Positions 19,837 through 43,978 of a DNA stretch of 43,978 bases are shown one piece after another. Position numbers and translations under genes: made by a program. This DNA is from a virus. The notes beneath the pieces are model-generated. The model saw only the letters and a program-made list of their open reading frames with translations, was not told the origin of the DNA and ran no database searches. Each line of letters opens with the position of its first letter. Positions within the stretch are counted from its first letter, which is position 1. The DNA lies in the IMG/VR virus record IMGVR_UViG_3300027857_000007, positions 1 to 43,978 of that record, one strand, 5' to 3'.

Positions 19837-19841
19837 GAGCC

Positions 19842-22896: not shown

Positions 22897-23049
22897 GCTT
22901 CCCTCCCTGGACTCGATACCGGCACTGGAGTGGTCACCGTGCCACATCCCGGCTCGTGCCAGTTCCCCAGTTGTCGAGCCAGTTCCGTGCCACATACTCG
23001 GGCGCATTGGCGCGGAGTCCGGCGAAAAGATGCTTGCTTTGAGTGCCTA

Positions 23050-24302: not shown

Positions 24303-24330
24303 GTCGGAGAGTATGCCACGTAAGATAGCC

Positions 24331-24342
24331 TGAGTAGATACC
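24331..24342. promoter_or_regulatory. Half-dyad operator before the integrase
   Basis: The sequence GTAGATACCGAC is shared, base for base, with the dyad at 16010-16021. It sits 29 bases upstream of GTG 24302 on the minus strand and supports that start over longer ones. It may control integrase expression. Confidence 0.35.
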
Positions 24343-24346
24343 GACG

Positions 24347-29583: not shown

Positions 29584-30871
29584 CGCTGAAGCCGAAGCGC
29601 TTCTCTACAGTTGGCGCTTCCATGCGCGGCCGGCGCAAATCCTCCCCGGCACGGAAGGCGCGGCGATCGCTGAGGCGGATTGGGTCTTCTGGTTATTGCT
29701 GGCTGGACGGGGATTCGGCAAGACCAGAACGGGCGCCGAAACAGTGCGCGAGTGGGCAGAGGATCCCAATGAGCGAATCTTGATGATCGCGCCGACCGCG
29801 GATGACGTTCGCTCGGTGATGATTGAAGGACCCAGCGGCTTGCTGAGTTGCTATCCGCCAGGCGCAAAGCCTGAGTTCAATTCTTCCCGACATCTTATTC
29901 AGTTCCCATCCGGGGCTGTTGGCATCACGCGCTCAGCGGACGAACCGGAACGGTTGAGGGGCCCGCAGTTCACGAAGTTCTGGGCCGATGAGTTGTGCGC
30001 GTGGAACTATCCCCAAGAGGCCTGGGATCAGATCATGTTCGGCTTCCGGCTGAAGTCGGCCAAGTTGCAGGGGATTATCACCACCACGCCGAAACCTCTT
30101 CCGGTGCTGAAGGGCATCATCGCGGATGAGTCAACAGTCATCACCAGGGGTTCGAGCTACGACAACAGAGACAACCTGAGCGAAACGTATTACCGGAAAG
30201 TCATCCGGCCTTACGAAGGGACGCGGCTCGGCCGGCAGGAAATCAACGCAGAGCTGCTGGAAGACATTCAAGGCGCCTTGTGGACGCGGGGAATGATCGA
30301 GGCCACGCGCCGGCCGGTGAATGACATCCGGCAAGATCAGATGGTTCGGCTGGTGGTGGCGATAGATCCGGCAGTGTCGACCACTGACGAATCGGACGAA
30401 ACCGGCATCATCGTTGCGGCGTTGGCGAAAAGCGGACACGTCGCGGTGCTAGCGGATCTGACTTGCAGGGAATCGCCGGCGAGCTGGGCGAAGATCGCGA
30501 TCGCGGCATACAAAAACTGGGGCGCAGATCGCATCATCGGCGAAGTCAATAACGGCGGCGATTTGGTTGAGCGCAACATTCGGAGCGCGGAGGGCGGCGA
30601 GCAAGTGGCGTTTCGAGCGGTCAGGGCTTCTCGAGGAAAGATGGTCAGGGCCGAACCTGTTGCGGCGAGATACGAACGCGGTTTGGTTCATCATCTCGGT
30701 AGTTTTGAAAAGCTGGAAGACCAGATGTGTAGCTATGTGCCAGGCATGACTAAAAAGTCACCCGACCGGATGGATGCGCTGGTGTGGGCCATTCATGATT
30801 TGGTTCTGGACGAAGAGCAGAGCGAAATCAGATTCCAGTTTGCCGATGAAGTGGTAATCAGTCCGTTCTGA
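29501..30871 (+). CDS. Large terminase subunit
   Basis: 456 residues from ATG 29501. Walker A AGRGFGKT is at 68-75, Walker B/DE motif at KFWADELCAW (about 162-171), and the C-terminal RuvC-like nuclease begins VVAIDPAVSTTDESDETGI with the catalytic Asp. The ATPase drives DNA into the procapsid through the portal and the nuclease cuts the concatemer. It is 11.7 kb from the portal gene, whereas the two are normally adjacent. Confidence 0.93.
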   Translation: MSTPGNYSLAKSLSLDPQCDQIIQSLTDAEAEALLYSWRFHARPAQILPGTEGAAIAEADWVFWLLLAGRGFGKTRTGAETVREWAEDPNERILMIAPTADDVRSVMIEGPSGLLSCYPPGAKPEFNSSRHLIQFPSGAVGITRSADEPERLRGPQFTKFWADELCAWNYPQEAWDQIMFGFRLKSAKLQGIITTTPKPLPVLKGIIADESTVITRGSSYDNRDNLSETYYRKVIRPYEGTRLGRQEINAELLEDIQGALWTRGMIEATRRPVNDIRQDQMVRLVVAIDPAVSTTDESDETGIIVAALAKSGHVAVLADLTCRESPASWAKIAIAAYKNWGADRIIGEVNNGGDLVERNIRSAEGGEQVAFRAVRASRGKMVRAEPVAARYERGLVHHLGSFEKLEDQMCSYVPGMTKKSPDRMDALVWAIHDLVLDEEQSEIRFQFADEVVISPF

Positions 30872-30905: not shown

Positions 30906-31445
30906 TTAGGCGCCTATCTTTCCGAAGAAGCGTTCCCACCGCGCAGGGTTTACTATCCAGTCCTGTGAATTCGCGATGACGAAAGATGGCGGCATTTCAG
31001 ACCAGCGGTAAGCGGCGAATTCTGAGCTACCGTCTCGGTTGGATCGCGCTTCACCGACCGGGCGATGTTTGCGAAAGACGTTCAAGTCGGCGAGCGTCCA
31101 CAGGCTGAGATGCTCGTCTTTCTCGTCGGCGAATCCGTAGAAGAACACATCACCCCAGCCTTCGAGAATCTTTTCCATCTCGGTCTTCATTCCTGATGGC
31201 CGCACGGTTCGAATGGTGAACTGGCTTCGGTAACCCTTATAGGTGTCAGCTCTGCGGATTCGACATGCGATGCGAAGCGGTTTCAGTTCAAGACCGCGAT
31301 CCATCTTGAAACTCATCAAGTCCGAATTGCGTTCGCGGTCTTCTAGGATAGGGGCGCGCCCGATGAGGCACGAGCCGAGAATGCGTTTCATCTCAGGCTC
31401 GAAACGCAGGCTCCATTCGTAATCGCGTTGGCAATCAGGCGACAT
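30906..31445 (-). CDS. Conserved-looking hypothetical protein, possible nuclease
   Basis: 179 residues from ATG 31445, overlapping the MT-A70 gene by 11 bases. EDRERNSDLMSFKMDRGLELKPLRIACRIRRADTYKGYRSQFTIRTVRP (about 36-84) resembles a CRIRR-type phage protein that I have seen in many phages without a firm function; its D...K pattern could suit a PD-(D/E)XK nuclease. GWGDVFFYGFADE is the second conserved block. Pairing with a DNA methyltransferase raises the idea of a modification-cleavage pair. Fold prediction would be decisive. Confidence 0.5.
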   Translation of the reverse strand: MSPDCQRDYEWSLRFEPEMKRILGSCLIGRAPILEDRERNSDLMSFKMDRGLELKPLRIACRIRRADTYKGYRSQFTIRTVRPSGMKTEMEKILEGWGDVFFYGFADEKDEHLSLWTLADLNVFRKHRPVGEARSNRDGSSEFAAYRWSEMPPSFVIANSQDWIVNPARWERFFGKIGA

Positions 31446-32334
31446 GCTCGGCTTGGTTGCCCCACGGTTCGAAGCCTTCATGTGCCGCGCGCGCAAACAT
31501 CTCAAGGCGCGGGCCTGGGCTCGCGAGTGCGACGCGTTCGTAGAAGATGTCAGGCTTGACTGAATGGCCGTTGACGTCGGCTTCGAAGGAAAGCCGCAAG
31601 CCAAGCTGGACTAACTTCAGAGATCCGATGCGTCCGAACAGGACGTGCTCGGTGTCGTACATCCAACTGAATGGCGTGATGCCGACGTTCTTGCGCCAAG
31701 TCATCAAGCACTGGTATTCCACTCCCCAGTGGTCGAAGATGTTGAGACCGTCACGCAGGAAATGGTGTGTGACCCACAGATAAACGTGACAACCGTCTTC
31801 GAATGCTAGTGCTGGAACCGGAAGCGCAGCGATGGCATCCAGCTCCATCGTGGGATAAACAAGCACGGGGCCTTGCTTTGGTCGGACGTCCCGAGAAAGT
31901 TTCTCCATTGGCCACGGCGGATCCACAACGAGGCATCTGTACTTGCCATCTGGGAATGGAACGTTGGCTTGGTCGACAGGCTGAACGCTTTGTCGTTTCA
32001 CTTCTTGAATCAGTGTCTTAAGGCCTGGAAGTTCATCCTCTGATGTGATTACCTGGTCATGACATACATCGCGAATCGCTGGTTCGTGTCTTGCGCCCTC
32101 CATTAACCACCAAGCCCATGCCTGCCCAAACGGCAGATTTGCCTCGTTACACCATTTGCCAAAAGCCTTGTCTCCGTCGTGCCCTTCGCCGAACTCCCTT
32201 CGTGCGTCTAGCAACGCGTGACCTGTAGCTATCTGATCGTTCAGCCTAGCCAGACCATGAGCGTGAGCCTGTTTGTGGAGGCGGTGAATTTTCTGCTTCA
32301 GATTGTCGAGACGTTCCTGAGATGTGGATTTCAC
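31435..32334 (-). CDS. MT-A70-family adenine methyltransferase
   Basis: 299 residues. An N-terminal helical region (1-125) precedes the MT-A70 core: DPPW at 138-141 (SAM/target motif), then PTMELDAIAALPVPALAFEDGCHVYLWVTHH and TWRKNVGITPFSWMYDTEHVLFGRIG, and a C-terminal KPDIFYERVALASPGPRLEMFAR. Bacterial and phage MT-A70 proteins methylate adenine N6 in DNA. This is the third DNA methyltransferase in the genome. Opposite strand to the terminase and sugar cassette. Confidence 0.85.
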   Translation of the reverse strand: MKSTSQERLDNLKQKIHRLHKQAHAHGLARLNDQIATGHALLDARREFGEGHDGDKAFGKWCNEANLPFGQAWAWWLMEGARHEPAIRDVCHDQVITSEDELPGLKTLIQEVKRQSVQPVDQANVPFPDGKYRCLVVDPPWPMEKLSRDVRPKQGPVLVYPTMELDAIAALPVPALAFEDGCHVYLWVTHHFLRDGLNIFDHWGVEYQCLMTWRKNVGITPFSWMYDTEHVLFGRIGSLKLVQLGLRLSFEADVNGHSVKPDIFYERVALASPGPRLEMFARAAHEGFEPWGNQAEHVA

Positions 32335-32362: not shown

Positions 32363-32406
32363 GACCGCAAGCGGTATTGACACTCGCGCGGTAGTCGGTG
32401 TAGAGT
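32363..32406 (+). promoter_or_regulatory. Promoter and dyad operator at the head of the cassette
   Basis: GACCG-CAAG-CGGTA (32363-32376) is a dyad of the same family. TTGACA (32377-32382), 18 bases and TAGAGT (32401-32406) form a good sigma-70 promoter for the RHH gene at 32420. The TTGACA overlaps the dyad, so a repressor bound there would block it. GTGTATACCGAC follows at 32405-32416. Confidence 0.65.
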
Positions 32407-32419
32407 GTATACCGACCCC

Positions 32420-32560
32420 ATGAAACACGTCATCGGTCTCCGAATCATGGTCATCATCGACCGCGAACTGTTGAAGCGGATCGACAGTGCAGCGAAGAAG
32501 GCCAAGCTCAATCGTTCAGCGTTTCTCAGGGCGGCAGCGGAGGCCAAACTGAATGCCTGA
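32420..32560 (+). CDS. 46-residue ribbon-helix-helix regulator
   Basis: MKHVIGLRIMVIIDRELLKR then IDSAAKKAKLNRSAFLRAAAEAKLNA: a ribbon strand (IMVIID) and two helices with R-S-A-F-L-R, a classic minimal RHH. It starts four bases after the operator region and is the first gene of the sugar cassette operon. It probably represses its own promoter. The next ATG overlaps its stop. Confidence 0.65.
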   Translation: MKHVIGLRIMVIIDRELLKRIDSAAKKAKLNRSAFLRAAAEAKLNA

Positions 32561-32729
32561 GATCGACGAACGCGACGTCAGGTTGTGGTTCATGAAAACG
32601 GATTTGGAACAGGCTGAAGATACATTTCGAGTAGTCGAGGGAATCATCGAGACACGGAAAGTTTCAGCCGAAACGCAAAAAGCGCTCGGACGCGGGCCAG
32701 CCCAAGCTCGAGTTGAAGGAGCCCGGTAA
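32553..32729 (+). CDS. Small hypothetical protein
   Basis: 58 residues from ATG 32553, overlapping the RHH gene by 8 bases. Helical (VRLWFMKTDLEQAEDTFRVVEGIIETRKVSAETQKAL). The stop directly touches the GTG of the next gene. Its role is unknown. Confidence 0.5.
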   Translation: MPEIDERDVRLWFMKTDLEQAEDTFRVVEGIIETRKVSAETQKALGRGPAQARVEGAR

Positions 32730-33419
32730 GTGATTCCGCATGTCACCTGCATTTGTCTCACGGCAGATCGGCAAGCCTACACCGACCGCGCGGTGAAGTT
32801 GTTTCTGGCTCAAACCTACCTCAACAAATCGCTTTTGATCCTCGACAACGGCGTCACGCCGTACAAATGGCCGGCCGGAGCGAAAGGTGTTTCGGTCGTT
32901 CGAACAGCGATGGAACCGAAGACTATCGGGGCGCTGCGGAATTTTGCCAATCAGCTGGCAGCGATGGCGGATATCCTCGCGCACTGGGACAGTGATGACT
33001 ACTCTCATCCTCTTCGTCTGGCTTGGCAAGCGCAGGCGTTGACGCGCGAAAGCACCGGTCGGCCGCTCGAAGTGGTTGGATATCGCACGATGCTGTTCTG
33101 GCGCAAGAAACAGCAAGAGGCGTGGTTATTTCAACACGCGACCCCCGGTTACGGTGTTGGGACCTCGTTGATGTATTGGCGCGGGACGTGGAAGGCGCAT
33201 CCGTTTGAAGAACGAAATGGCGGCGAAGACCTCATCTGGTTACGGGATTCGGTGGGTTACGGGAATGCGGCTTCCGTCGACGGGTTTTTGAAAGATGAGC
33301 CCGCTATGGTAGCGGAGATTCACGAATCGAATACGACCAAGCAGACCATACCGGGGGATTCGTGGACAAGAAAACCGGAGTGGGATTCGAGGCTTGCTGA
33401 ACTGATGAGGTTGCCCTGA
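32730..33419 (+). CDS. GT-A-fold glycosyltransferase (GT2-like)
   Basis: 229 residues from GTG 32730. VTCICLTADRQAYTDRAVKLFLAQTY is the GT2-like nucleotide-binding start, and HWDSDDY at 85-91 contains the metal-binding DxD. GVGTSLMYWRGTWKAHPFEERNGGEDLIWLRDS is the later acceptor region with an ED motif that could be the catalytic base. Such enzymes transfer a sugar from UDP- or dTDP-sugar. No membrane segment is seen. It opens a run of five GT-like genes. Confidence 0.75.
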   Translation: MIPHVTCICLTADRQAYTDRAVKLFLAQTYLNKSLLILDNGVTPYKWPAGAKGVSVVRTAMEPKTIGALRNFANQLAAMADILAHWDSDDYSHPLRLAWQAQALTRESTGRPLEVVGYRTMLFWRKKQQEAWLFQHATPGYGVGTSLMYWRGTWKAHPFEERNGGEDLIWLRDSVGYGNAASVDGFLKDEPAMVAEIHESNTTKQTIPGDSWTRKPEWDSRLAELMRLP

Positions 33420-34228
33420 TGTCAGTTTGGCTGTGCATTCCATCGAAGCGTCCACCGGAAGAAGCGGAGGAGTGTCTGAAGCTGTGGCGAGAGCGCGGCT
33501 ACAAGATTGCGCTGTGGTGCGACACTCGTCAGGACGCCGAAGCGAAAAGCCCTGACTGGTGGCAGGCGAATAGCACTGACTACCATGGCAGCACTGACAC
33601 GTATCCCGGTTATGCTTCCGCCGTTAATCACCTGGTTCGCTGCGTTCTTGAGTTTGATTCAGACGCTGAATGGTTCGTGACCGGCGGCGACGACATCGAA
33701 CCGGACGCCAACCATTCCGCCGAAGAAATCGCGCGGGAATGCATTGGTCATTTTGCGGATGCGTATCGTCAACGTCACAACTTCACCGGAACGTGGCTGG
33801 ATCTCGACCACTATTTCGATGTTGCAACCTTCGGAGTGATGCAACCCACCGGCGACAGATACGGCGCCGACGAACGACACATCGGAGAACCAGGCTCAGC
33901 CTATATCGATCGAGTCTGTGGATCGCCGTGGATGGGACGAGAATTCTGCCGGCGAATGTACGGCGGAAACGGGCCACTCTTCGAAGGCTACTTCCACATG
34001 GGCGAAGACGAAGAGCTTCAATGTGTCGCTCAGAAGCTTGGGGTGTTATGGCAGAGACCGGACCTGATTCAGTTTCACCGGCATTGGGCGCGCAAGAGAA
34101 AATCTCGTGACGATATGCCGAAGTTCCTGGAACGTGCTAACTCGGCCGCGGAGTGGCGCAAATACAAAGAACTATTCGCAGCGCGGCAGGCTGCTGGTTT
34201 TCCCGGCCATGAGCCACTGGAGGCGTGA
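33419..34228 (+). CDS. GT-A-like glycosyltransferase, second
   Basis: 269 residues, TGATG overlap. WLCIPSKRPPEEAEECLKLWRERGYKIALWCD begins like a GT2/GT-A domain, and WFVTGGDDIEPD at 86-97 contains the metal-binding DD. HMGEDEELQCVAQKLGVLWQRPDLIQFHRHW is the GED-type catalytic region. Same architecture as the previous gene, weak sequence relation. Function in the pathway unknown. Confidence 0.7.
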   Translation: MSVWLCIPSKRPPEEAEECLKLWRERGYKIALWCDTRQDAEAKSPDWWQANSTDYHGSTDTYPGYASAVNHLVRCVLEFDSDAEWFVTGGDDIEPDANHSAEEIARECIGHFADAYRQRHNFTGTWLDLDHYFDVATFGVMQPTGDRYGADERHIGEPGSAYIDRVCGSPWMGREFCRRMYGGNGPLFEGYFHMGEDEELQCVAQKLGVLWQRPDLIQFHRHWARKRKSRDDMPKFLERANSAAEWRKYKELFAARQAAGFPGHEPLEA

Positions 34229-34467
34229 TGCTTCCTGACGATCCGCTGGTGATGGACTTCGAGAAGGAAGCGCGCAAGCTGGAACAGACGTTGGAAGGCT
34301 GGTGTTACGCGAACGATGTTCATCCGGTTGTGATGTTCTCGGCCATGATGTCGCTCGCGATGCGAGCTGCAATGAAAGCCGGAATGAGTCGAACGGAAAC
34401 CCAGGACGCGATTGACAAGTGGTGGACGATTCGAGAATCGAAAGGCTACAGGTTGCAAAGCAGATGA
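34228..34467 (+). CDS. Hypothetical protein of the cassette
   Basis: 79 residues from ATG 34228, after GGAGG. Helical (DFEKEARKLEQTLEGWCYANDVHPVVMFSAMMSLAMRAAMKAGMSR). It overlaps the next membrane peptide by four bases. No family recognised. Confidence 0.55.
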   Translation: MLPDDPLVMDFEKEARKLEQTLEGWCYANDVHPVVMFSAMMSLAMRAAMKAGMSRTETQDAIDKWWTIRESKGYRLQSR

Positions 34468-34556
34468 GCTGGATTGATGGGTTGACGTTTTGCGCGGCAC
34501 TATTCTTTCTCGTGACGCTGCTGGTGCTGCGGGATAAACGCAACGGGAAATGGTGA
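34464..34556 (+). CDS. 30-residue membrane peptide
   Basis: MSWIDGLTFCAALFFLVTLL then VLRDKRNGKW: one hydrophobic helix with a basic end. ATGA overlap with the previous gene, so it is probably co-translated. One of two such peptides inside the sugar cassette. Confidence 0.5.
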   Translation: MSWIDGLTFCAALFFLVTLLVLRDKRNGKW

Positions 34557-34566
34557 AAGGAATCTG

Positions 34567-34755
34567 ATGGCAAAACCAAAGCATCCCAAACGTATTCTGG
34601 TGTCCCTGCAAAATGCGGGCGGCGATGACGAGTATCTAGACGCGGTGTATGCGGAAGACGAGTTGGCGGATGATCGGTTCGAAGATGGCGAGCAAATCGG
34701 AGTCTACGAACTCGAGGAAGTAAAGCGGTTGAAAAAGCCGGTGCTACTGCAATGA
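34567..34755 (+). CDS. Small acidic hypothetical protein
   Basis: 62 residues, ATG 34567 with GAAAGGAA upstream. It has a basic start (MAKPKHPKRILVSLQNAGG) and an acidic central part (DDEYLDAVYAEDELADDRFEDGE). No family recognised. Its stop overlaps the next ATG. Confidence 0.5.
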   Translation: MAKPKHPKRILVSLQNAGGDDEYLDAVYAEDELADDRFEDGEQIGVYELEEVKRLKKPVLLQ

Positions 34756-35552
34756 AGCTGGACGCTCCCGACATCGCGCAGTACTTTCCGCATCTGCAGG
34801 AACGAGTGATGCCGCATTCCCTCGGTCAACCTGTGTTATCGGACTGGGCCGACATGCCCGATGATCACGAATTGAAGCTGTACAAGAACTGCGGGTTTCT
34901 GAATCGCGATGAAGCGGCTATCCTGTATCAGTGCGCGAAGCAGTTCCCGCATGGTGATTGGCTCGACATCGGCGCTCATACCGGCTGGACGGCGCTTCAC
35001 GTTGCGGCGGCAGGCTTGCACGTTAGCGCGTTGGAGCCGATGTACGCGGACGACGCGTTCTTTGATCGGGCTAACGCCAACATCAACGAACGGGCGAAGT
35101 TCGGAGATCAGGTGTTCATGATGCCGGTCACGAGCCGGATGCATTTCGAAAAGCTGGAAAGCGACCAAGAGTATGACGGTGTCATGATCGACGGTGACCA
35201 TTGCTGGATGAATCCGCTGTACGATGCCGTGAAAGCGTTCAAGCACCTCGCGACGAACAGTGTTGTCGTGCTTCACGATTTCATCGGCGGGCCAGTGCGG
35301 GAAGCGACCAGGTATCTGATGTGCGAAGGAATGAAATGCCGCGTCTACTGCGCGAGTTCTCAGCTTCTAGCAGTCTGTTGGAGAGGCGACTTCACTCCAC
35401 CGGATTACACGCCTGATCCAAAGATTGATTGGCGATCGGTTCTTGAACCTTTGGCGGCCACTCGGCTGGTGGACTTCCAAGACGGCCACGCAATCACGGA
35501 CCCGCAGCACACGCAAGGCAGCGGAGACTTCTACTTCGAGTTGTGCTCATGA
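34752..35552 (+). CDS. Class I SAM-dependent methyltransferase (Methyltransf_24-like)
   Basis: 266 residues. The SAM-binding motif I is DIGAHTGWTALHVA (72-85), followed by ALEPMY (acidic loop) and the post-motif DGVMIDGDHCWMNPLYDAVKAFKHL, as in Methyltransf_24 and TylF-like O-methyltransferases. The N-terminal 65 residues are helical. Probably methylates a sugar or small acceptor, given neighbouring GTs. Overlaps the next gene by four bases. Confidence 0.75.
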   Translation: MKLDAPDIAQYFPHLQERVMPHSLGQPVLSDWADMPDDHELKLYKNCGFLNRDEAAILYQCAKQFPHGDWLDIGAHTGWTALHVAAAGLHVSALEPMYADDAFFDRANANINERAKFGDQVFMMPVTSRMHFEKLESDQEYDGVMIDGDHCWMNPLYDAVKAFKHLATNSVVVLHDFIGGPVREATRYLMCEGMKCRVYCASSQLLAVCWRGDFTPPDYTPDPKIDWRSVLEPLAATRLVDFQDGHAITDPQHTQGSGDFYFELCS

Positions 35553-36181
35553 GCTACTCCCAATACCAAGAAGACCTCATCATCGCGGAAATCTTCGCCA
35601 ACCACAATCAGCATACCGGCCGGCTTTTAGATATTGGAAGTTGGGACCCAATCGAGAAATCCAATTCTCGCTTGCTGATCGAGCAAGGCTGGAGTGCCGT
35701 CCTGATCGAACCGTCGCCTACCGCATTGCGAAACCTGATCGCTGCGTATGGGCCACGATTCGTGCGAAAGCCAGGTCAGGAGATTCACGTCCTCGGCGCC
35801 GCGGTGGGAGTCGAAGCGGGCTTGGTGAAAATGGCAATCACCGACGACGCTGTTTCCACGTCTGACCCGAAAGTAGCGGAGCTCTGGAAGGACGCCGGGG
35901 GATACGTCGGATACGGCTGGTTCCCGGCCATGACGCTCGGGAATGTCTTTGATCGCTTCGGTGGACCGTATGACTTTGTGAACATCGACGCCGAAGGGTT
36001 GAGCGTCGAGCTATTGAAGGAATTGCTGAAGACCAAAGCGTACCCGCGGGTGATTTGCTGTGAACACGACGGACGGATACAGGAAATCATGACTGCGGTT
36101 TCCCCGTTCGGCTACACGGCGAAAGTCGCGAATGCGGACAGCGCGGGAACCAACATCATCTTGGAGCATCGACGTGCGTAA
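35549..36181 (+). CDS. FkbM-like methyltransferase
   Basis: 210 residues from ATG 35549 (ATGA overlap). SQYQEDLIIAEIFAN starts the FkbM pattern, DIGSWDP at 28-34 is motif I, then VLIEPSPTALRNLI, and DFVNIDAEGLSVELLKEL is the family's I-D-x-E-G motif. FkbM-type enzymes methylate hydroxyl groups on sugars or polyketides. Together with the neighbours, a sugar O-methylation step is likely. Confidence 0.85.
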   Translation: MSYSQYQEDLIIAEIFANHNQHTGRLLDIGSWDPIEKSNSRLLIEQGWSAVLIEPSPTALRNLIAAYGPRFVRKPGQEIHVLGAAVGVEAGLVKMAITDDAVSTSDPKVAELWKDAGGYVGYGWFPAMTLGNVFDRFGGPYDFVNIDAEGLSVELLKELLKTKAYPRVICCEHDGRIQEIMTAVSPFGYTAKVANADSAGTNIILEHRRA

Positions 36182-36938
36182 AGTACTTGTTACGTTTGGT
36201 GGTCGAGCCTACGATCTGAACATTGCTTTGACGATGCAGAACAAAGACATCTCTGGCGTCGATGATATCCGAGTCTATGACGACGCTTGGCTTTTGCAAA
36301 CGCCGTTTTATGAGACGAATCGGTGGATATTCGAGAGAAAACCGCAGAATCATTTAGGCCATTGTTGCTGGAAGCCGCTGATTATCTTGGACACGATGAA
36401 GGGTTTGAACTGGGGCGACGTGGTTCTCTACGTCGATGGCGACACATCACCGATTGCGAATCTCGATCCGCTGTTTGAGATCGCACGGCGAGAGAAAGTA
36501 GTTCTGTTCGAGGCGACCGGCTGCGACAATCTGCGATTCACAAAAGCGGAATGTTTTGCGGCCATTCTAGGCAAAGCGCCGTTTTCCTCGCAGCATGCTT
36601 GCGGACGGTTTCAACTCTTCACTTGCGGCAATATGTTCGCAAATCAACTGCTTCTCGAATGGCAGACGTACATGCTGAATCCGCTCTGCCAGTTCGACGA
36701 AGGCAGTACCACAATGCCAGATCAACCGGAGTTCTTCAGGAACTCGGCGGATCAATCGGTGCTTTCGATGCTGGCTTTGAAGTACAACATTCCACTTCAC
36801 AGAGAAGCGTGTCAGTACGGCTGGCCGGCTCATCCTGGAATCGGGCAGCCAGGGGATACGTACCCTCAACTGTTTCACCAGGAATGGGCGACGGGTGACA
36901 GGAACGACGTGAGCGGATCGAGGTTCAGGAACGTATGA
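36174..36938 (+). CDS. Putative glycosyltransferase with DGD motif
   Basis: 254 residues from GTG 36174, overlapping the FkbM stop by 8 bases. VTFGGRAYDLNIALTMQNKD, CCWKPLIILDTMKGLNWGDVVLYVDGDTSPI contains the DGD metal-binding motif at 88-90 after a Trp-Lys-Pro helix, a pattern of capsular or GT8/DUF-type glycosyltransferases. The C-terminus includes NSADQSVLSMLALKYNIPLH, typical of the catalytic 'DQ' helix. Cytosolic. Confidence 0.7.
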   Translation: MRKVLVTFGGRAYDLNIALTMQNKDISGVDDIRVYDDAWLLQTPFYETNRWIFERKPQNHLGHCCWKPLIILDTMKGLNWGDVVLYVDGDTSPIANLDPLFEIARREKVVLFEATGCDNLRFTKAECFAAILGKAPFSSQHACGRFQLFTCGNMFANQLLLEWQTYMLNPLCQFDEGSTTMPDQPEFFRNSADQSVLSMLALKYNIPLHREACQYGWPAHPGIGQPGDTYPQLFHQEWATGDRNDVSGSRFRNV

Positions 36939-37162
36939 CGCCGACGGAAGAGATCATCGAGCAAGAGACGCCGCTGGGCGCGATCAAGGATGCACGTCGC
37001 CGGAAGCAACAAATGGAATTGGAGATTGCCAAGCTGATCGTGGGGTTCGAGACTGCAACGTTGCTCAAGATCGAGAACATCAAAGTCTTGAGGACGGAGG
37101 CCGTCAACGCGATCGGTCAAAAACGGATACGGATCATGACGGAAGCCAGAGTAATCCTGTGA
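36935..37162 (+). CDS. Hypothetical protein of the cassette
   Basis: 75 residues, ATGA overlap. Charged helix throughout (EEIIEQETPLGAIKDARRRKQQMELEIAKLIVGFETATLLKIENIKVLRTEAVNAIGQ), probably a coiled-coil or small helical bundle. No catalytic motif seen. Confidence 0.5.
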   Translation: MTPTEEIIEQETPLGAIKDARRRKQQMELEIAKLIVGFETATLLKIENIKVLRTEAVNAIGQKRIRIMTEARVIL

Positions 37163-37803
37163 CCACAGCGGAATTCATCAAGACGGTAGGCTTTCATTCT
37201 TTGGGAGGCCCAGAGTCCAAAGAAGCAACTTACGACATTGCGATGCTGGCTCTGCAAAGAGGCATACCAGGAGACTTCGTGGAATGCGGCGTATACGCGG
37301 GGGCAAGTTCGGCACTGATGGCGCGGGCGCTGATGGACGCGTATGGTTGGGATAGCGTTGAAGCGCATCCCTGGCAAAACACCCGGAGGGTGCATCTCTT
37401 CGACAGCTTTCAAGGGATGCCAGAGTCTCAACCGATTGACGCGGAACTTCACGCGCGCGGCGACGTCAAAGGCTCAGCAAGTGTTTCCCTTCCAACCGTA
37501 CAAGCGAATATGCATCGCTGGGGGATTCCGCCTGAGCTGCTGGTTTACCATCCAGGCTGGTTTGAGGAAACGGTTTATGCTTGGGTTGCCTCGCATCGCT
37601 ACGGCGATCCGCCGAACTTGCCAACAATCTCAGTGCTTCGTCTCGACGCGGATCTTTATTCGTCGACAAAGGCAGCAATGAAGCTATACCCCTTAGTCTC
37701 ACAGGGTGGCTGGATCATCTGCGACGACTACGATTTATCAGGAGCAAGATTAGCAGTGAATGAAGTGGTGAATCCGGCGCCGATGTACTGGAGGAAGCGG
37801 TGA
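37159..37803 (+). CDS. TylF/macrocin-type O-methyltransferase
   Basis: 214 residues from GTG 37159 (GTGA overlap). GDFVECGVYAGASSALMARAL is motif I (38-58), RVHLFDSFQGMPESQPID is the TylF signature, and LRLDADLYSSTKAAMKLYPLVSQGGWIICDDYD is the metal-site/DDY region. TylF enzymes methylate deoxysugar hydroxyls in macrolide biosynthesis. In this phage it most likely decorates a sugar made or transferred by the neighbours. The family match is strong. Confidence 0.88.
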   Translation: MTTAEFIKTVGFHSLGGPESKEATYDIAMLALQRGIPGDFVECGVYAGASSALMARALMDAYGWDSVEAHPWQNTRRVHLFDSFQGMPESQPIDAELHARGDVKGSASVSLPTVQANMHRWGIPPELLVYHPGWFEETVYAWVASHRYGDPPNLPTISVLRLDADLYSSTKAAMKLYPLVSQGGWIICDDYDLSGARLAVNEVVNPAPMYWRKR

Positions 37804-38003
37804 CCAAGTTCGATCAGGTGCGCGCGTGTTTGCGCGAAGGTCCAACCACGTCGGGCGAGGTTGCTGCGACCACCGGGTTAAGCGTCAAGAACGCTTGTGC
37901 GAGGTTGCGTGACCTGGAGGCTCGCGGGCAGGCTAAGCGTATTGGTTTGGTTCGCGGGTCGCAAGGACGAAGCGCTGTTCTCTATATGGAGACAAAGCGG
38001 TGA
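37800..38003 (+). CDS. Small winged-helix regulator
   Basis: 67 residues from GTG 37800 (GTGA overlap). KFDQVRACLREGPTTSGEVAATTGLSVKNACARLRDLEARGQAKRIGLVRGSQGR is a MarR/ArsR-style winged helix-turn-helix: two helices, the recognition helix (SVKNACARLRDLEA) and a wing. It sits inside the sugar cassette and might control it, or bind the dyad elements. Confidence 0.6.
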   Translation: MTKFDQVRACLREGPTTSGEVAATTGLSVKNACARLRDLEARGQAKRIGLVRGSQGRSAVLYMETKR

Positions 38004-38707
38004 ATCTGATTCCATTGGGCCGCGACACCGATTACCGCATTGGTTTCGGAGAGATGGGCCACACCATTGATGTAGACCTGCTACCTGATTCTCCAATTGT
38101 TCTCGATGCGGGATGCCGCGGTTTCGCGTTCTCGAAAGACATTCTCATTTTGAGGCCGAAAGCGCGAGTGATTGCGCTCGACCCGGACTCACGCATCGAC
38201 AACCCACAAGTCCCAGGCATCGAGTACTGGAAAGTCGGACTCGTGGCGCATCAGAAACGCGTCTCCAGTTACGTCTCGACCACAAAGTCATCGGGCGACG
38301 GCGGTGCAAACTTCCTGATCGAACCCGGATCAGGGATTGACGGAGTAATCACACGGCCGGATTGTGGATGGGAGTTCTCCGACTACGAAATGGAAACGGT
38401 AGCGACTGGGAATATCCAAGCCATCATGCGGATTGCGGACGTCTCGCACTGGGACGTGGTGAAGCTCGACATCGAAGGGCAGGAGTTTCCGGTTCTCGAA
38501 AACTGGCCGGGGCCAATCGCAACACAGATCAGCGTGGAGTTTCACGACTTCACCGGACCCATGCGACACAGAGTAGACGCGGGGTATTACACAACACTGA
38601 TGGATCACCTGGGGCAGTGGTATCGCTTCGCGAGACATGAGTGGATGGACTTGGACGGTGACCCGGTGCACTTCGGCCATTGGGATTCCGTGCTGGTGTT
38701 GAAATGA
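38000..38707 (+). CDS. FkbM-like methyltransferase, second
   Basis: 235 residues from GTG 38000. VLDAGCRGFAFSKDIL is motif I (34-49), ARVIALDPDSRID follows, and DVVKLDIEGQEFPVLENW (about 151-168) carries the FkbM motif. A C-terminal HDFTGPMRHRVDAGYY completes the family. Similar job to 35549 but clearly separate. It would O-methylate a hydroxyl group, probably on a glycan. Confidence 0.8.
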   Translation: MNLIPLGRDTDYRIGFGEMGHTIDVDLLPDSPIVLDAGCRGFAFSKDILILRPKARVIALDPDSRIDNPQVPGIEYWKVGLVAHQKRVSSYVSTTKSSGDGGANFLIEPGSGIDGVITRPDCGWEFSDYEMETVATGNIQAIMRIADVSHWDVVKLDIEGQEFPVLENWPGPIATQISVEFHDFTGPMRHRVDAGYYTTLMDHLGQWYRFARHEWMDLDGDPVHFGHWDSVLVLK

Positions 38708-38793
38708 CTCTAGGAAACGAATTGAAGCTCTGTTTTGGGTTGACATGGATGTGGCTAGTGGCGCTAACGATTTACGTGTTGGTGCTGAAATGA
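38704..38793 (+). CDS. 29-residue membrane peptide
   Basis: A single helix of about 16 residues (LTWMWLVALTIYVLVL). It overlaps the previous stop by four bases and the next start by four bases, so it is embedded in the coupled operon. Function unknown. Confidence 0.5.
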   Translation: MTLGNELKLCFGLTWMWLVALTIYVLVLK

Positions 38794-38978
38794 CAAACAC
38801 GGCGGATGAGGACTGGCTAGAAACGAAGCGCCGAATGGCAAACGCAAAGTGTAAGTGTGGCGTGTGCGCTGCGAATCTGTACTTGAAGATTCGAACTGAG
38901 CGGAGACTGCGAGAGCACGAATCTCCAACGCGCGGCGACTCCATGGCCGCGCGAAACGAACCAAAGGTGAGTGAATGA
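38790..38978 (+). CDS. Small Cys-containing protein
   Basis: 62 residues from ATG 38790. CKCGVC (about 28-33) could bind a metal with a fourth ligand elsewhere. The C-terminus is Arg/Lys-rich. Function unknown. Confidence 0.45.
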   Translation: MTNTADEDWLETKRRMANAKCKCGVCAANLYLKIRTERRLREHESPTRGDSMAARNEPKVSE

Positions 38979-39961
38979 TCCGAGTCGGGGTGATGGGCTG
39001 CGGCGGCATGGGGCAGAAGCGCATTCAAGCACTGAAGCAAATCGAAGGCGTGGAGTACATCGGCGTCGCAGACGAGGCAAGGTATTTGGATTACGAATCG
39101 TTGGATGATTTGCTGATCGACAAGCCGGATTGGATCATCGTCTGTCTGCCTCACGATACGGCGGTAACAGTGGTAGAACAGGCGCTTAATGCGGGGGTCA
39201 AAGTGTTCATGGAAAAACCGATGGGCCGCAACTTGGCCGAAGCGACGGCGTTGTATCTCGAAGCTGAGAACGATCACTTATTCGTTGGCATGAACTATCG
39301 CTTCTATCCCGGCGTCATCGCGTTGATGAAAGACCTGAAGTCTGGATACTTCGGAGAGTTGATCTCGGTCGAAATGACGCTGGGCCACGGCGGAAAGCCT
39401 GGGGATGTGACATCGTGGAAGCTTGATCCAGAACGCAACGGCGGCGCATTGCTCGATCCGGGGATTCATCTGCTGGATCTGGTGCAACAAATCATCGACC
39501 CGGTTGTCTTCAAGCTTTCAGCGCGCGGATCACAGGGTTGGTGGAAAACTGGCATTGACGAAGAAGTGCACGCGCTATTTGCTGATGAAGACGTGCTGGT
39601 CAATCTTCAAGCCTCCATCGTGCGATGGCGGAACACCTTCCGAATCCAAGTCAACGGCACGGACGGCTACGGCATCGTCGAGAGACGCGGCGGAAATTAC
39701 GGGCCACAATCTTACCGCAGAGGAAAACGGTGGGGCTGGATGAACTCAGGCTCTCACTGGCCGGAAGACTGGGTCGTCCGACAGGCGAACTGCGAATCGG
39801 TATTTGCCGATGAACTGCGCGAGTTGTTTTTCCCAACTTGGCAGTACGGCGATAATCCCTGGAAACCGCACGTATGCACGTCGGTAGAAGCGCTGGAGAC
39901 GATGAAGCTGTATGACCGGCTTGCTACAATCGGCGAATGCGAAACGAAGAGCTCATCGTGA
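38975..39961 (+). CDS. Gfo/Idh/MocA-family NAD(P)-dependent oxidoreductase
   Basis: 328 residues. Rossmann start RVGVMGCGGMGQKRI (3-17) and the family hallmark GVKVFMEKPMGRNLAEA with catalytic Lys of EKP near residue 76. NYRFYPGVIALMKDL then GALLDPGIHLLDLV are the C-terminal domain residues (the conserved DxGxH with probable catalytic His). Members oxidise or epimerise sugar substrates such as UDP-sugars and inositols. It is unusual in phages and suggests production or modification of a particular sugar. Confidence 0.88.
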   Translation: MIRVGVMGCGGMGQKRIQALKQIEGVEYIGVADEARYLDYESLDDLLIDKPDWIIVCLPHDTAVTVVEQALNAGVKVFMEKPMGRNLAEATALYLEAENDHLFVGMNYRFYPGVIALMKDLKSGYFGELISVEMTLGHGGKPGDVTSWKLDPERNGGALLDPGIHLLDLVQQIIDPVVFKLSARGSQGWWKTGIDEEVHALFADEDVLVNLQASIVRWRNTFRIQVNGTDGYGIVERRGGNYGPQSYRRGKRWGWMNSGSHWPEDWVVRQANCESVFADELRELFFPTWQYGDNPWKPHVCTSVEALETMKLYDRLATIGECETKSSS

Positions 39962-40452
39962 GCCACGTGAATTTTGCGCAGCGGATTGCTACGAATATGG
40001 CCAATGCAACGGGGCGAAACTCGTGCGATTTAGAAAGCGAAGCCGTCTTTGGACTGCTGCAAATGGGGGCGCGGTTCGACGGCGAGAAGTGGCGCACAGA
40101 GTTCAGGACCTTTGTCGCTTACGGGATCGTCGCTCAAGCGAAGCGATTCTTGAGGACGCGCTATCAGCAACCGTTCTTCGATTTGGAAGATATTCATCCT
40201 GATAGCCGATTGGAACTGTCGGCGACGCACATCGAGTTACGGCGCAGGTTGAAGCGTTTTGTCGGACGTCTCCCAGCGAAGCAACGCTTAGTCATCCGTC
40301 TACGCTACTGGGACGGAATGTCAATGAGCGAGGTTGCCAAAGAGACCGGCATGTGTCGAGACTGGATTTTCACGTTAGAGCATCGCGCATTGCAACGTCT
40401 AAAAGGCGGGATGGAACGACGCGGCGTTCACAAAGTCTCGGACATCTTATGA
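39937..40452 (+). CDS. Sigma-70-like RNA polymerase sigma factor
   Basis: 171 residues, overlapping the oxidoreductase end by 25 bases. Region 2: RIATNMANATGRNSCDLESEAVFGLLQMGARFDGEKWRTEFRTFVAYGIVAQAKRFLR (17-74). Region 4: LPAKQRLVIRLRYWDGMSMSEVAKETGMCRDWIFTLEHRALQRLKGG (111-157), a full HTH. Regions 1 and 3 are absent, as in phage late or group IV-type factors. It may switch host RNA polymerase to late or cassette promoters. No anti-sigma gene was seen. Confidence 0.75.
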   Translation: MRNEELIVSHVNFAQRIATNMANATGRNSCDLESEAVFGLLQMGARFDGEKWRTEFRTFVAYGIVAQAKRFLRTRYQQPFFDLEDIHPDSRLELSATHIELRRRLKRFVGRLPAKQRLVIRLRYWDGMSMSEVAKETGMCRDWIFTLEHRALQRLKGGMERRGVHKVSDIL

Positions 40453-41174
40453 GGCGGTGTGTGGTCAACGTCGCGATCGGCGGACGGAATCAGCAGAAGT
40501 ACATCGTCGGTCAAGAGCGATTACGAAACCAGCTCAAAGGCGAAACGCTGAGATTCTACACGAATGGTTATCCGATCGGATGCCCGGAACACAAAGACGT
40601 TCCGTATGCCTTCAAAGCCTACGCACTGAAAGAAGCCTCGGCTTACGCAAGTACGTTGCTATGGTGCGATTCATCCATCGTGCTTGGACCGAGACCCTTG
40701 GAAGAGCTATGGGCGAAGATCGAGACCGATGGATACTGGATCGCACGCGGGGGTTGGAGTAATTACGAGTGGACCGCAGAGAGCGCGTACGCGGATCTGT
40801 TGCCGGAGATCGATCCACGCGACCGGATGGCCGCGAACAGGCAGATTCCCCATGTGATCGCAACCGCATTCGGCCTGCAGACTCAAAGCAACATCGGCCT
40901 GGATTTTCTGAGTCAGTATTTTCGCCTCGCCAACACGAAAGCCTTCATCGGGCCGATCACCAACTCCAACTTTCCCGGCGCGAAGTTCTCCGGCAATGCG
41001 GCAAAGTGCTCACCCTGCGGACCCCCAGACGTCAGGGGACACCGGCACGACCAGAGTGCCGCCTCTGTTATAGCGTGGCGTCTTGGCATGAAACTCAGCG
41101 ACACTCCCGAGTGGTTTGCTTACCGTGGCAATGAAACTGCTGATACTTGCTTGGTGGCTGATGGCTCTTATTAG
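40449..41174 (+). CDS. Putative glycosyltransferase, fourth
   Basis: 241 residues from ATG 40449 (ATGA overlap). VVNVAIGGRNQQKYIVGQERLRNQLKG opens like a GT with a nucleotide pocket, and ASTLLWCDSSIVLG at 68-81 has the DSS metal-binding triad. HDQSAASVIAWRLGMKLSD provides a DQS helix like the other GT. Similar to 36174 in layout but not close in sequence. Called by structure-like motifs. Confidence 0.6.
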   Translation: MRRCVVNVAIGGRNQQKYIVGQERLRNQLKGETLRFYTNGYPIGCPEHKDVPYAFKAYALKEASAYASTLLWCDSSIVLGPRPLEELWAKIETDGYWIARGGWSNYEWTAESAYADLLPEIDPRDRMAANRQIPHVIATAFGLQTQSNIGLDFLSQYFRLANTKAFIGPITNSNFPGAKFSGNAAKCSPCGPPDVRGHRHDQSAASVIAWRLGMKLSDTPEWFAYRGNETADTCLVADGSY

Positions 41175-41637
41175 TTCCGCAAACCCGGCGTACAAACACG
41201 GCAAGACTGGCACGCCAGAACACAAGATCTGGATCGACATGCGGCAACGCTGCGAGAATCCGAACCGCTCAAACTTCAAACACTATGGCGGTCGCGGGAT
41301 TCGCGTGTGTGAACGTTGGCAGTCATTCGAGGCGTTCTTTGCAGACATGGGCGAGCGACCGACCCCGGAGCATTCCATTGAGCGCAAAGACAACGACGGG
41401 CCGTACTCGCCGGACAATTGCAAGTGGGCCACTCCATCGGAACAGCGGCATAACTACAGCCGTAATCACTGGATCACAATAGACGGACGGCGGCAGACCA
41501 TTGGTGACTGGGCGAAAGAGCGTGGTCTTGACGAGCGGCTAATCCGCATTCGCCTCCGGCGCGGCATGAGCGAACACGCCGCCGTGATGTTCGCGAAAGC
41601 TCCGAACGTCGGCGGCAGACGAAAGAGGTTCGCATGA
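41161..41637 (+). CDS. HNH/AP2-type homing-endonuclease-like protein
   Basis: 158 residues from ATG 41161 (longer forms from 41116 or 41131 add a hydrophobic N-terminus). PEHKIWIDMRQRCENPNRSNFKHYGGRGIRVCERWQSFEAFFADMGERPTPEHSIERKDNDGPYSPDNCKWATPSEQ is a familiar phage pattern: short HNH-like nuclease with a conserved D-N-x-G-x-Y and N-C-x-W-A. WAKERGLDERLIRIRLRRGMSEHAAV is a DNA-binding tail with an HTH look. It may be mobile within the cassette. Confidence 0.7.
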   Translation: MALISSANPAYKHGKTGTPEHKIWIDMRQRCENPNRSNFKHYGGRGIRVCERWQSFEAFFADMGERPTPEHSIERKDNDGPYSPDNCKWATPSEQRHNYSRNHWITIDGRRQTIGDWAKERGLDERLIRIRLRRGMSEHAAVMFAKAPNVGGRRKRFA

Positions 41638-42524
41638 AACTGATAGGGATCATGCCTGTAAGAAATGAGGATTGGTGCCTTGGTCTGTCGGCTCGCGTGG
41701 CGCTCGAATGGTGTGATGCCGTGGTGTTCTATCTGCACGCTTGCACGGATCGTTCGTTGCAAATCATCGCGGACATCCAAGCTGAAGTAACCGACCGGAT
41801 CAGCTACCACATTTGCGAAGACGGCTGTTGGGATGAAATGACGCATCGGCAGATTCTACTTCGCAGCGCACGCCAAGAACACGGCGCAACCCACATAGCG
41901 ATGATTGACGCGGACGAAGTTCTGACCGCGAATTTGCTGCCGCGCGACGCTCTTGAAATTCGGCTGCTTTGCGATATGTTGGTGCCCGGTCAAATGCTCG
42001 AACTCCCCGGCTACAACTTACGCGGCTCACTCGACCGATATCACTCCAACGGCATCTGGGGAAACCGCTGGTTCTCGTGCGCGTTCAAAGATCAACCAGA
42101 AGCACATTGGGCTGGAGATAAATTCCATTCTCGAAATCCAGCTGGCGTGAAGTGGCAACCGTGGCGCCCAATCAAACAAGGCGAAGGGGGGATACTGCAC
42201 CTGTGGGGAGCCAGTGAGAGCAGATTGCGGGCGAAACATGCACTGTACAAAGTGACAGAGCGCCTGCGATTCCCCGCGAAGCCCACGGTTGAAATCGAGC
42301 GGATGTACAACTTATGGAGATCGAAAGACGATGAACTGATTTCGTATCCAAAGCAATGGCCGAACGATTGGGAATACGCGTCAATACCGGATGAATGGTG
42401 GCGGCACGACGTCGCATACGTTTCCTTCGATTCGGAGATTCCCTGGCAAGAAGCCGAAGTACGACGGTTAGTTCAAGAGCACGGCCCAGAGAAGTTCAAG
42501 GGCCTCGATCTGTTCGGATTGTAG
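41634..42524 (+). CDS. GT2-family glycosyltransferase, fifth
   Basis: 296 residues. KLIGIMPVRNEDWCLGLSARVALEWCDAVVFYLHACTDRS is a GT2-like fold start, HIAMIDADEVLT at 87-98 has the DxD motif, and the acceptor region with Trp and His follows. Ends with a Trp-rich region (WEYASIPDEWWRHDVAYV). The last gene of the cassette before the portal operator. Clear family assignment, unknown donor. Confidence 0.8.
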   Translation: MKLIGIMPVRNEDWCLGLSARVALEWCDAVVFYLHACTDRSLQIIADIQAEVTDRISYHICEDGCWDEMTHRQILLRSARQEHGATHIAMIDADEVLTANLLPRDALEIRLLCDMLVPGQMLELPGYNLRGSLDRYHSNGIWGNRWFSCAFKDQPEAHWAGDKFHSRNPAGVKWQPWRPIKQGEGGILHLWGASESRLRAKHALYKVTERLRFPAKPTVEIERMYNLWRSKDDELISYPKQWPNDWEYASIPDEWWRHDVAYVSFDSEIPWQEAEVRRLVQEHGPEKFKGLDLFGL

Positions 42525-42557: not shown

Positions 42558-43978
42558 ATGCGTTGGTTGCGTTCGTTCCTTCGAAGGCTTGCCATTCGTT
42601 TCGACCCAAACACGCGGCGAGCCTTCGAAGATCAGAAGCGCGTTGCACTCGCTTCCCAAGCTCTGGATGAATCCGCGCTCCGCGAATCCCGCTATCGCGC
42701 CGAGTACATCGAACGCGCCTCCGAACTGATCGAAGCCAAGCAGATGTCAGGAACGGGGCCGTGGTTGGTCCACGAGTCCCGAGGGCAGGTAAACAAGCCC
42801 GGCAAGTTTCGGGAAACCAATCCCATTACGTCGACCGGAGCCACAGCGGACATTTCGCTGATGCTGGAAAACGTCGAGTGGCGACGGGAAGTAAACCTCT
42901 CGTGGCTCGAGTTCTCGAGATGGGGCATTCAGCAAATCATCCTGATTTCGAGACTGTACTACATCAAGAATCCGATGATCCAGAGGGGTATCAACGTTGC
43001 GGCGGATTACGTCTTCGCGCGCGGCGTCGAAGTGTCGTCGGATGACGAAACCGCCAACGAAACCATCACGGACTTCTTCGAGCGCAACAAATCAGTGCTC
43101 GGCTCGACTGCATTGGTTGGGTTAGAGAAACGCCAATATTACGACGGCCAGGTGTTCTTCCGGTTTTTCCCCGATAAAACAGATAAAGGGCTGGTCACCA
43201 TTCGAACGATCGACGCGACCGAGATCCAGGATGTGTTGACCGACCCGGACGACACCGACGAACCAAGATACTATCGGCGGGTCTGGTCTCAAAGGAACTA
43301 CGATCCAACCGGCCAGGTAACGATTGACAAGCAGGAATCCTGGTATCCGGCGCTCAACTACGAGCCGGAAGGCGCAGACAAGCTGGAGCAAATCAACGGG
43401 ATCCCGGTCGAGTGGGATTCCCCGGTTTACCACATGCGCGGCGGTGTGGGAGTTTCAAAATGGCATTTCGACGTTCCCCGAGTTTACGCGGCGTTGGACT
43501 GGGCGAAGACCGCAACGAAGTGGTTAGGCTGGTGCGCCACGATCAAAGCTGCTTTGTCGCAATTCGCCATGACGCTGACGACCAAAGGCGGATTGCAAGC
43601 CGTCGCAGGCGCAAAACAGCAACTGGAAACCACGGTCAACACAGGGGCAAATATCTGGGACACAAACCCCTCTGCAACGGCGGGATCAATTTTCGCCTCG
43701 GGACCTGGCACGGTTCTTGCGCCATTCAACACCAAAGGGGCGGGAGGCGATCCATCGGAAGTGAAAGAGTACCGCAACATGGTGGGTCAGGTGTTGGGGA
43801 TTCCTCCGACCTGGTTGGGAGATTTAGAGACCGCGAATCTTGCAACTGCGACGACGCTGGATCGGCCGACCGAAACCGGCTTTTTAGGCAAGCAGGAAAT
43901 CTGGCGCGAGTTCTTCATTATTGCCGCGACTTACGTGCTCGGGATCAGTAAAGGCGCTCCCAGCGGAAAGTTGCGGGA
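42558..43978 (+). CDS. Phage portal protein, N-terminal part (continues at 1-731)
   Basis: Opens at ATG 42558 and runs off the window in frame. Residues 1-130 are the charged clip-like start; QIILISRLYYIKNPMIQRGINVAADYVFARGVEV and EKRQYYDGQVFFRFFPDK are portal-core patterns, then KWHFDVPRVYAALDWAKTATKWLG and VLGIPPTWLGDLETANLATATTL (conserved P-x-x-x-L-G near the stem). The joined protein is about 674 residues. Twelve copies form the ring with terminase docking. No close-coupled gene between terminase and portal, because the cassette separates them. Confidence 0.85.
   Translation, partial: MRWLRSFLRRLAIRFDPNTRRAFEDQKRVALASQALDESALRESRYRAEYIERASELIEAKQMSGTGPWLVHESRGQVNKPGKFRETNPITSTGATADISLMLENVEWRREVNLSWLEFSRWGIQQIILISRLYYIKNPMIQRGINVAADYVFARGVEVSSDDETANETITDFFERNKSVLGSTALVGLEKRQYYDGQVFFRFFPDKTDKGLVTIRTIDATEIQDVLTDPDDTDEPRYYRRVWSQRNYDPTGQVTIDKQESWYPALNYEPEGADKLEQINGIPVEWDSPVYHMRGGVGVSKWHFDVPRVYAALDWAKTATKWLGWCATIKAALSQFAMTLTTKGGLQAVAGAKQQLETTVNTGANIWDTNPSATAGSIFASGPGTVLAPFNTKGAGGDPSEVKEYRNMVGQVLGIPPTWLGDLETANLATATTLDRPTETGFLGKQEIWREFFIIAATYVLGISKGAPSGKLR
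43852..43978. repeat. Terminal direct repeat, right copy (circular-assembly overlap)
   Basis: Identical to 1-127. It closes the circle and shows that the window is one unit genome with an arbitrary break inside the portal gene. Confidence 0.95.

Follow-up and report, generated by a model that had tools for sequence, protein, structure and literature searches.

The probable glycan block and its genes

The window is a stretch of 43,978 nucleotides, positions 1 to 43,978 of the viral record IMGVR_UViG_3300027857_000007. Between its genes for the terminase large subunit and the portal protein lie 18 tightly coupled genes (32553-42524), all on the plus strand. At 14 of the 17 internal junctions the neighboring genes overlap, and in ten cases the overlap is exactly 4 nt. 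The first-pass annotation had described a large insertion at this point, with about twenty tightly overlapping genes; the block is confirmed as real and the tight overlaps stand, although the count comes down to 18. Genes are referred to below by their first coordinate where needed.

29501-30871, plus strand: terminase large subunit (terL), left flank (PHROG 979 (terL), E 9e-40)
31435-32334, minus strand: MT-A70 type adenine methylase, between terL and the block (Pfam MT-A70, 1.9e-15)
32553-32729, plus strand: small ORF of no assigned function, without Pfam match
32730-33419, plus strand: core glycosyltransferase 1, GT2-like (weak Pfam GT2, 0.015)
33419-34228, plus strand: core glycosyltransferase 2, predicted GT-A fold (AlphaFold2 model; without Pfam family)
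34225-34467 and 34567-34755, plus strand: two small ORFs without Pfam match
34752-35552, plus strand: Methyltransf_24 class I methyltransferase (Pfam, 1.8e-8)
35549-36181 (start 35543 or 35549), plus strand: FkbM-type methyltransferase (family-level PF05050 matches)
36174-36938, plus strand: glycosyltransferase-like protein of the same family as 40449 (D-x-D-T motif)
36935-37162, plus strand: small ORF without Pfam match
37159-37803, plus strand: TylF-type O-methyltransferase (Pfam, 8.8e-30)
37800-38003, plus strand: small winged-helix-like protein (weak Pfam HTH matches, best 0.0045)
38000-38707, plus strand: FkbM-type methyltransferase (Pfam, 3e-4, slightly under cut-off)
38745-38978, plus strand: small ORF without Pfam match
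38975-39961, plus strand: Gfo/Idh/MocA oxidoreductase (Pfam, 3e-16)
39937-40452, plus strand: sigma-70 family factor, regions 2 and 4 (Pfam Sigma70_r4, 2.4e-11)
40449-41174, plus strand: glycosyltransferase-like protein, homolog of 36174 (hhalign)
41131-41637, plus strand: protein that is HNH-like by eye only, without Pfam match
41634-42524, plus strand: core glycosyltransferase 3, Glyco_tranf_2_4 type (Pfam, 1.3e-4, weak GT2)
42558-43978, the frame running on over the circular junction to 731, plus strand: portal protein, right flank (orthologous to the portals of relatives)

The MT-A70 methylase, on the opposite strand, is probably outside the glycan module.

Three of the five glycosyltransferases first proposed as GT-A-like hold up, two by profile and one by fold. 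The profile of the GT32730 family, in which an HWDSDD motif is conserved, matches heparosan synthase B in the PDB at 1e-11, and also SpsA. That of the GT41634 family has GmaR as its best PDB match, which is weak (E 0.001), and its DADE motif follows a D-A/S-D-E pattern in 96 of 99 sequences. GT33419 is linked to neither by hhalign with small alignments, and its own profile (74 rows) found no glycosyltransferase in the PDB by sequence. An AlphaFold2 model built from an alignment of 74 family members (pLDDT 91.7) nevertheless matches GT-A enzymes in a fold search of the PDB, with TM-scores of 0.4-0.5; it supersedes an earlier, poor model from 13 sequences (pLDDT 56), for which a fold search was meaningless. 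D91, D92 and H220 are invariant in all 74 sequences, and the two aspartates follow the strand at 83-87, as is expected of a conserved acidic metal-binding motif. GT33419 is thus predicted to be a glycosyltransferase of GT-A fold, from a family that is absent from Pfam and can serve as a marker of such modules.

The remaining two, GT36174 and GT40449, carry a D-x-D-like motif and gave no significant Pfam or PDB profile match. Their families are linked to each other by hhalign (98.4%), and they appear to form one glycosyltransferase-like family without a named relative.

All four class I methyltransferases were borne out, MT35549 through its family: its own sequence has no Pfam match, but 32 of 40 family members match FkbM (PF05050). 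The oxidoreductase and the sigma factor were likewise recovered. Of the two further regulators named at the outset, the winged-helix protein retains its weak HTH matches, whereas no ribbon-helix-helix (RHH) match was found among the block genes scanned.

Conservation and placement among related viruses

A set of 111 non-redundant IMG/VR loci was assembled for comparison. The synteny proposed as a check on the block proved strict for the three core glycosyltransferases: the order GT32730-GT33419-GT41634, on one strand, is constant in all 92 testable loci. Between the trio genes lie methyltransferases and glycosyltransferase-like genes that vary among loci, with the MT35549 family present in 70 of the 111, the GT40449 family in 48 and a Methyltransf_24 gene in 30. 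The EKP motif of the Gfo/Idh/MocA enzyme was found in the five related loci checked. The module genes are under purifying selection (dN/dS 0.09-0.20) and, since the same genes recur in the same order in about 100 other viral loci, the block is not a product of chance. Together, families, fold, synteny and selection provide good support for a phage glycan cassette with O-methylation.

Sigma-like genes occur in only 4 of the 111 loci, so that the phage's own sigma factor, originally seen as part of a distinctive combination, does not define the module. Among the smaller genes, the ORF at 32553-32729 shares 68% identity over 38 amino acids with an ORF of L002, and the protein at 41131-41637 has a homolog in L091 and L083.

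The module is wider than the insertion first seen, and the gap between terL and portal is one of the two positions that it occupies. It precedes the portal gene of this clade in 41 loci and directly follows an HK97-type capsid gene in another 22, with no locus showing both arrangements; 38 of the 111 show neither in the stretch examined. The two head backbones that carry it are unrelated. On the GT33419 tree, eight changes of context are needed, at least two of which are forced by strong branches, and this indicates repeated moves of the module between the two backbones.

One copy of the module lies in an integrated prophage of a sequenced acidobacterial isolate, KBS 96, where the trio is next to the prophage's capsid gene. 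A terL-based host search identified L100 and L102 as contigs of Chloroflexi MAGs, which are possibly misbinned, and L101 as a 361-kb contig of Acidobacteria AB60 with a prophage-like stretch that does not contain the glycosyltransferase core. Nothing was found in a search of 400 Chloroflexota genomes.

The virion and other candidate targets

The first-pass annotation left three targets for the glycan: the virion, the host surface or the phage DNA. We favour the virion in view of the association of the module with head genes, seen in two unrelated backbones, and we consider the other two less likely. On the evidence of sequence, the block is probably, though with modest confidence, a transferable late-operon module for the cytoplasmic glycosylation of virion proteins with an O-methylated glycan. 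The module would probably be transcribed late, together with the head genes. Working in the cytoplasm with nucleotide sugars of the host, the soluble trio would assemble a short glycan step by step on a protein of the virion, for example the capsid, the tail tube or a decoration protein. GT36174 and GT40449 would extend this glycan, the Methyltransf_24, TylF and FkbM enzymes would O-methylate it, and the Gfo/Idh/MocA enzyme would oxidize or reduce a sugar. In this account we infer the enzyme activities, the sugars, the protein target, the late expression and the order of the steps. The block contains no genes for nucleotide-sugar synthesis, which implies dependence on the sugars of the host. 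A Ser/Thr-rich capsid C terminus was considered as a mark of the acceptor and dropped, since homologs in described phages that do not belong to the group have such tails too. The head protein at 724-1647, once called lectin-like, has no match in Pfam.

Temperate phages carry O-antigen conversion genes, and TylF, FkbM and GT2 genes are found also in bacterial surface-glycan loci. The enzymes might then alter a surface glycan of the infected cell or lysogen, whether lipopolysaccharide, capsule or another, with the result that superinfection is blocked or adsorption changed. At least one carrier of the module is indeed an integrated prophage, and a cluster of sugar genes in cyanophage P-SSM2 contains distant relatives of GT41634. 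However, no flippase, polymerase, priming enzyme or membrane glycosyltransferase was recognized in the block. Its enzymes show no clear membrane segment, and there is no Pfam match to a flippase or membrane glucosyltransferase of the kind that marks gtr-type O-antigen conversion cassettes. Given also the constant linkage of the module to head genes, host-surface remodeling is unlikely.

Glycosylation of modified DNA bases, as a defense against restriction, is a quite improbable role for the glycosyltransferases. The genome does encode C5-cytosine, N4/N6 and MT-A70 methylases that might prepare the base, and in some relatives homologs of the C5 enzyme are found close to terL. FkbM and TylF proteins are not known to act on DNA, and the linkage to head genes again speaks against this target. 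Furthermore, a thymidylate-synthase-type hydroxymethylase (PF00303) was found in none of 29 cassette phages by a search whose control was positive; a search of 29 records for a TET/JBP oxygenase (PF12851), which would act after C5 methylation, likewise gave no match, but there the control was silent. Glycosyltransferases of phages are known to hypermodify DNA (Pyle et al. 2024, cited in PMC12619734).

Tailoring of a secreted glycoside or other metabolite during infection can be credited with very little probability. FkbM takes its name from a macrolide pathway. TylF, by its Pfam description, acts on a macrolide sugar. Against this, no aglycone synthase or transporter was recognized in the block, and the linkage to head genes holds in two backbones.

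Relation to known systems

Glycosylation of phage virions is already known, whereas the conserved module seen here appears to be undescribed. Mycobacteriophages glycosylate their capsid and tail tube with glycosyltransferases of their own (Che8 gp110, Corndog gp38, Myrna; Freeman et al. 2023, cited in PMC12363180). One such enzyme is named per phage in those reports, compared with a conserved trio and several O-methyltransferases here. Also similar is the pas33-pas34 pair of Actinoplanes phage phiAsp2, in which a GT2 enzyme is accompanied by a protein with a GT33419-like fold and a Methyltransf_24 domain. It is situated 1.2 kb after the putative major head gene, but consists of two genes rather than a multi-gene module. 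A tblastn search of INPHARED with the GT33419 family gave no match.

The capsid glycan of chlorovirus PBCV-1 is made by virus-encoded enzymes and has an O-methylated terminal rhamnose, and the a64r product combines a GT-A with an O-methyltransferase-like domain (PMC4691112). This resembles what is proposed for the block, in likeness rather than demonstrated homology; PBCV-1 is a eukaryotic algal virus with an N-linked glycan and nucleotide-sugar enzymes of its own. The sugar clusters of cyanophages P-SSM2 and P-TIM68 are also tight runs of glycosyltransferase genes, with distant homologs of GT41634 and GT36174 (24-31% identity), but they belong to T4-like genomes, include nucleotide-sugar epimerases and dehydratases, and lack the trio order. 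GmaR, whose glycosyltransferase domain glycosylates flagellin (PMC9638930), is an example of O-glycosylation by a soluble cytoplasmic enzyme, with the difference that its target is bacterial flagellin and that its match to the GT41634 family, though the best in the PDB, is weak.

We put forward tentatively, at a little short of an even chance, a more ambitious proposal. The fixed trio, with its exchangeable glycosyltransferase-like and O-methylation genes, would be a transferable module dedicated to capsid glycosylation. Repeated moves would have carried it from one head backbone to another, unrelated one, with chemically variable, methyl-capped coats as the outcome in many uncultured phages, including at least one that infects Acidobacteriota. 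Variation in the middle genes would then give rise to virion glycan types, in the manner of bacterial O-antigen loci. Few isolates of tailed phages have documented virion glycosylation, which was there tied to antibody recognition; if virion glycosylation is the right reading here, it also exists in a conserved form with several enzymes, widespread in the uncultured phages that infect environmental bacteria. Antibodies are an unlikely reason for it in such hosts, which would suggest another role, for example in particle stability or attachment. The copy integrated in the acidobacterial isolate makes the module testable.

Organization of the cassette

The window ends in an exact 127-bp direct terminal repeat (1-127 and 43852-43978 of the IMG/VR virus record), so the record is probably complete and its map a circle of 43,851 bp; the portal frame, which starts at 42558, spans the circular junction. 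PHROG profiles recognize terminase, head protease, major head, tail-completion, major tail, and tape-measure proteins. Between terL and portal, 18 genes (32553-42524) all lie on the plus strand, with overlaps at 14 of 17 internal junctions, exactly 4 nt in ten, and a gap of only 33 nt before portal. Because a methylase gene lies antisense between terL and this block, the block probably does not extend the terL transcript but opens a portal-head operon. A promoter-like site lies at 32377-32406, in keeping with an operon start there, but sites of this kind are no more frequent here than expected by chance. The methylases and putative sugar-modifying enzymes are as follows.

18283-19041: C5 DNA methylase
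22279-23007, minus: N4/N6 DNA methylase
31435-32334, minus: MT-A70 methylase, between terL and the block
start 34752, plus: Methyltransf_24 (Pfam)
start 37159, plus: TylF (Pfam)
start 38000, plus: FkbM (Pfam, just under cut-off)
start 38975, plus: Gfo/Idh/MocA (Pfam)

The three DNA methylases are of different types. In some relatives (L003, L082, L089), a C5 gene is again located close to terL or the cassette.

The enzymes

Methyltransferase MT35549 (enzymes are numbered by gene start) has no Pfam match by its own sequence, and 32 of 40 members of its family match FkbM (Pfam). Among the glycosyltransferases, GT32730 and GT41634 give weak GT2 matches (Pfam). In the PDB, heparosan synthase B (1e-11), SpsA, and chondroitin synthase match the family profile of GT32730; that of GT41634 weakly matches GmaR (0.0011), whose GT domain glycosylates flagellin (PMC9638930). 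GT33419 has no Pfam family match. Its predicted model (pLDDT 91.7, from a 74-sequence alignment) finds GT-A enzymes as best Foldseek matches, namely lysyl hydroxylase LH3, which contains a glycosyltransferase domain, a Leptospira glycosyltransferase, chondroitin polymerase, and GlfT2; with TM-scores of about 0.4-0.5, the model places it as a distant GT-A member. An acidobacterial ORF with a weak GT2 domain (L246:97-1728) aligns with GT33419 family members over their C-terminal portion and may be a cellular cousin. GT36174 and GT40449 match no named family in Pfam or PDB profile searches; they are mutually homologous (hhalign 98.4%) with acidic motifs kept, and we infer that both are glycosyltransferases.

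Between the window and its closest relative, L094/L173 (59-82% protein identity over the enzymes present there), dN/dS in the L173 comparison is 0.09-0.20 in all eight enzymes compared and 0.16 in portal, some dS values being close to saturation. Such low values indicate enzymes under constraint that are probably functional.

A conserved trio in two head-gene contexts

With terL, the GTs, and TylF as queries, IMG/VR scans gave about 240 loci, of which a profile survey and dereplication by shared 150-mers left 111 with core genes. The complete trio of GT32730, GT33419, and GT41634 occurs in 69, and its order is identical, on a single strand, in all 92 holding at least two members. Because most loci were retrieved via GT33419 or GT41634, finding these two is not independent evidence; the trio order is independent of retrieval, as is where GT32730 lies. 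The genes between trio members vary across loci, as tabulated.

Occurrence of other cassette genes among the 111 loci
MT35549 (FkbM-type): 70
GT40449: 48
GT36174: 37
Methyltransf_24: 30
TylF: 17
FkbM38000: 10
Gfo/Idh/MocA: 5
Sigma-like: 4

Some relatives carry an extra short-chain dehydrogenase gene adjoining the Gfo gene, immediately 5' of it in L092:13603-15299 and L091:5153-6813, which suggests a two-step sugar redox conversion in these two loci.

GT41634 is followed by portal of the window's clade in 41 loci. In 22 others, the head backbone is an unrelated one of HK97 type (terL phrog_9, portal phrog_12, capsid phrog_10), and the trio comes after its capsid gene at a median gap of 296 nt. 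No locus has both contexts, and 38 have neither within the stretch fetched. In L102, a terL relative lacking the cassette, portal begins 11 nt after terL, and relative to that layout the block is an insertion. The GT33419 tree of 65 loci requires 8 context changes, versus 21 in shuffles, and strong branches force at least two; the module has thus moved between head backbones, yet remains with one over long periods. L232:5528-14322 is rearranged: the GT trio precedes terL, and a C5 methylase separates terL from portal.

Target, novelty, and host

The first-pass annotation had proposed a glycan placed on the virion, the host surface, or DNA. We favor the virion, because linkage to head genes is maintained in two unrelated backbones, because no clear membrane segment was found in the block enzymes, and because of the likeness to phiAsp2. 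Shortly 3' of the putative major head gene, this phage encodes a GT2 enzyme together with a protein that matches GT33419 in fold and bears a Methyltransf_24 domain, the GT part presumably lying N-terminal of the methyltransferase. The chemistry has precedent: mycobacteriophage capsid and tail tube are glycosylated by the phages' own GTs (PMC12363180), and the PBCV-1 capsid glycan is O-methylated, with GT-A and O-methyltransferase-like domains joined in the a64r protein (PMC4691112). Glycosylation of DNA is disfavored, as 29 cassette phages have no thymidylate-synthase-type hydroxymethylase; a TET/JBP oxygenase search of 29 cassette phage records found no match, its control being equally silent. 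Modification of the host surface is likewise disfavored, the block holding no recognizable flippase, polymerase, or membrane GT. The protein after portal (724-1647), earlier called lectin-like, has no Pfam match and a sole PHROG match of unknown function; it may be a decoration protein and may accept the glycan.

Phage virion glycosylation as such is already known. No description of the module was found in the literature searched, mainly open-access papers, so its novelty is provisional. GT33419, GT32730, and TylF37159 have no tblastn match in INPHARED, and GT41634 and GT36174 have relatives there, at 24-31% identity (tblastn), in only a small number of records, all cyanophage, marine, or uncultured.

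L136, a locus of the HK97-type context (IMGVR_UViG_2522125054_000001), is an integrated prophage, its sequence lying at 129,993-170,850 of a 6.69-Mb contig in a genome from the class of Acidobacteria AB60. The source of IMGVR_UViG_2522125054_000002, which has the same genome number, is Bryobacterales bacterium KBS 96, an acidobacterium (PMC11924767). In the bacterial genomes searched, the GT33419 family is otherwise near-absent, with one strong match among 399 genomes of the AB60 class, two weak partial matches among 396 of the Acidobacteria phylum, and none among 400 of Chloroflexota. A host in Acidobacteriota is a reasonable guess for the window's phage. A tyrosine-recombinase-like integrase recognized by eye (23160-24413, minus) suggests that this phage is temperate, and 19835-20455 encodes a collagen-like tail fiber protein (PHROG tail fiber matches) with a signal-like N terminus.
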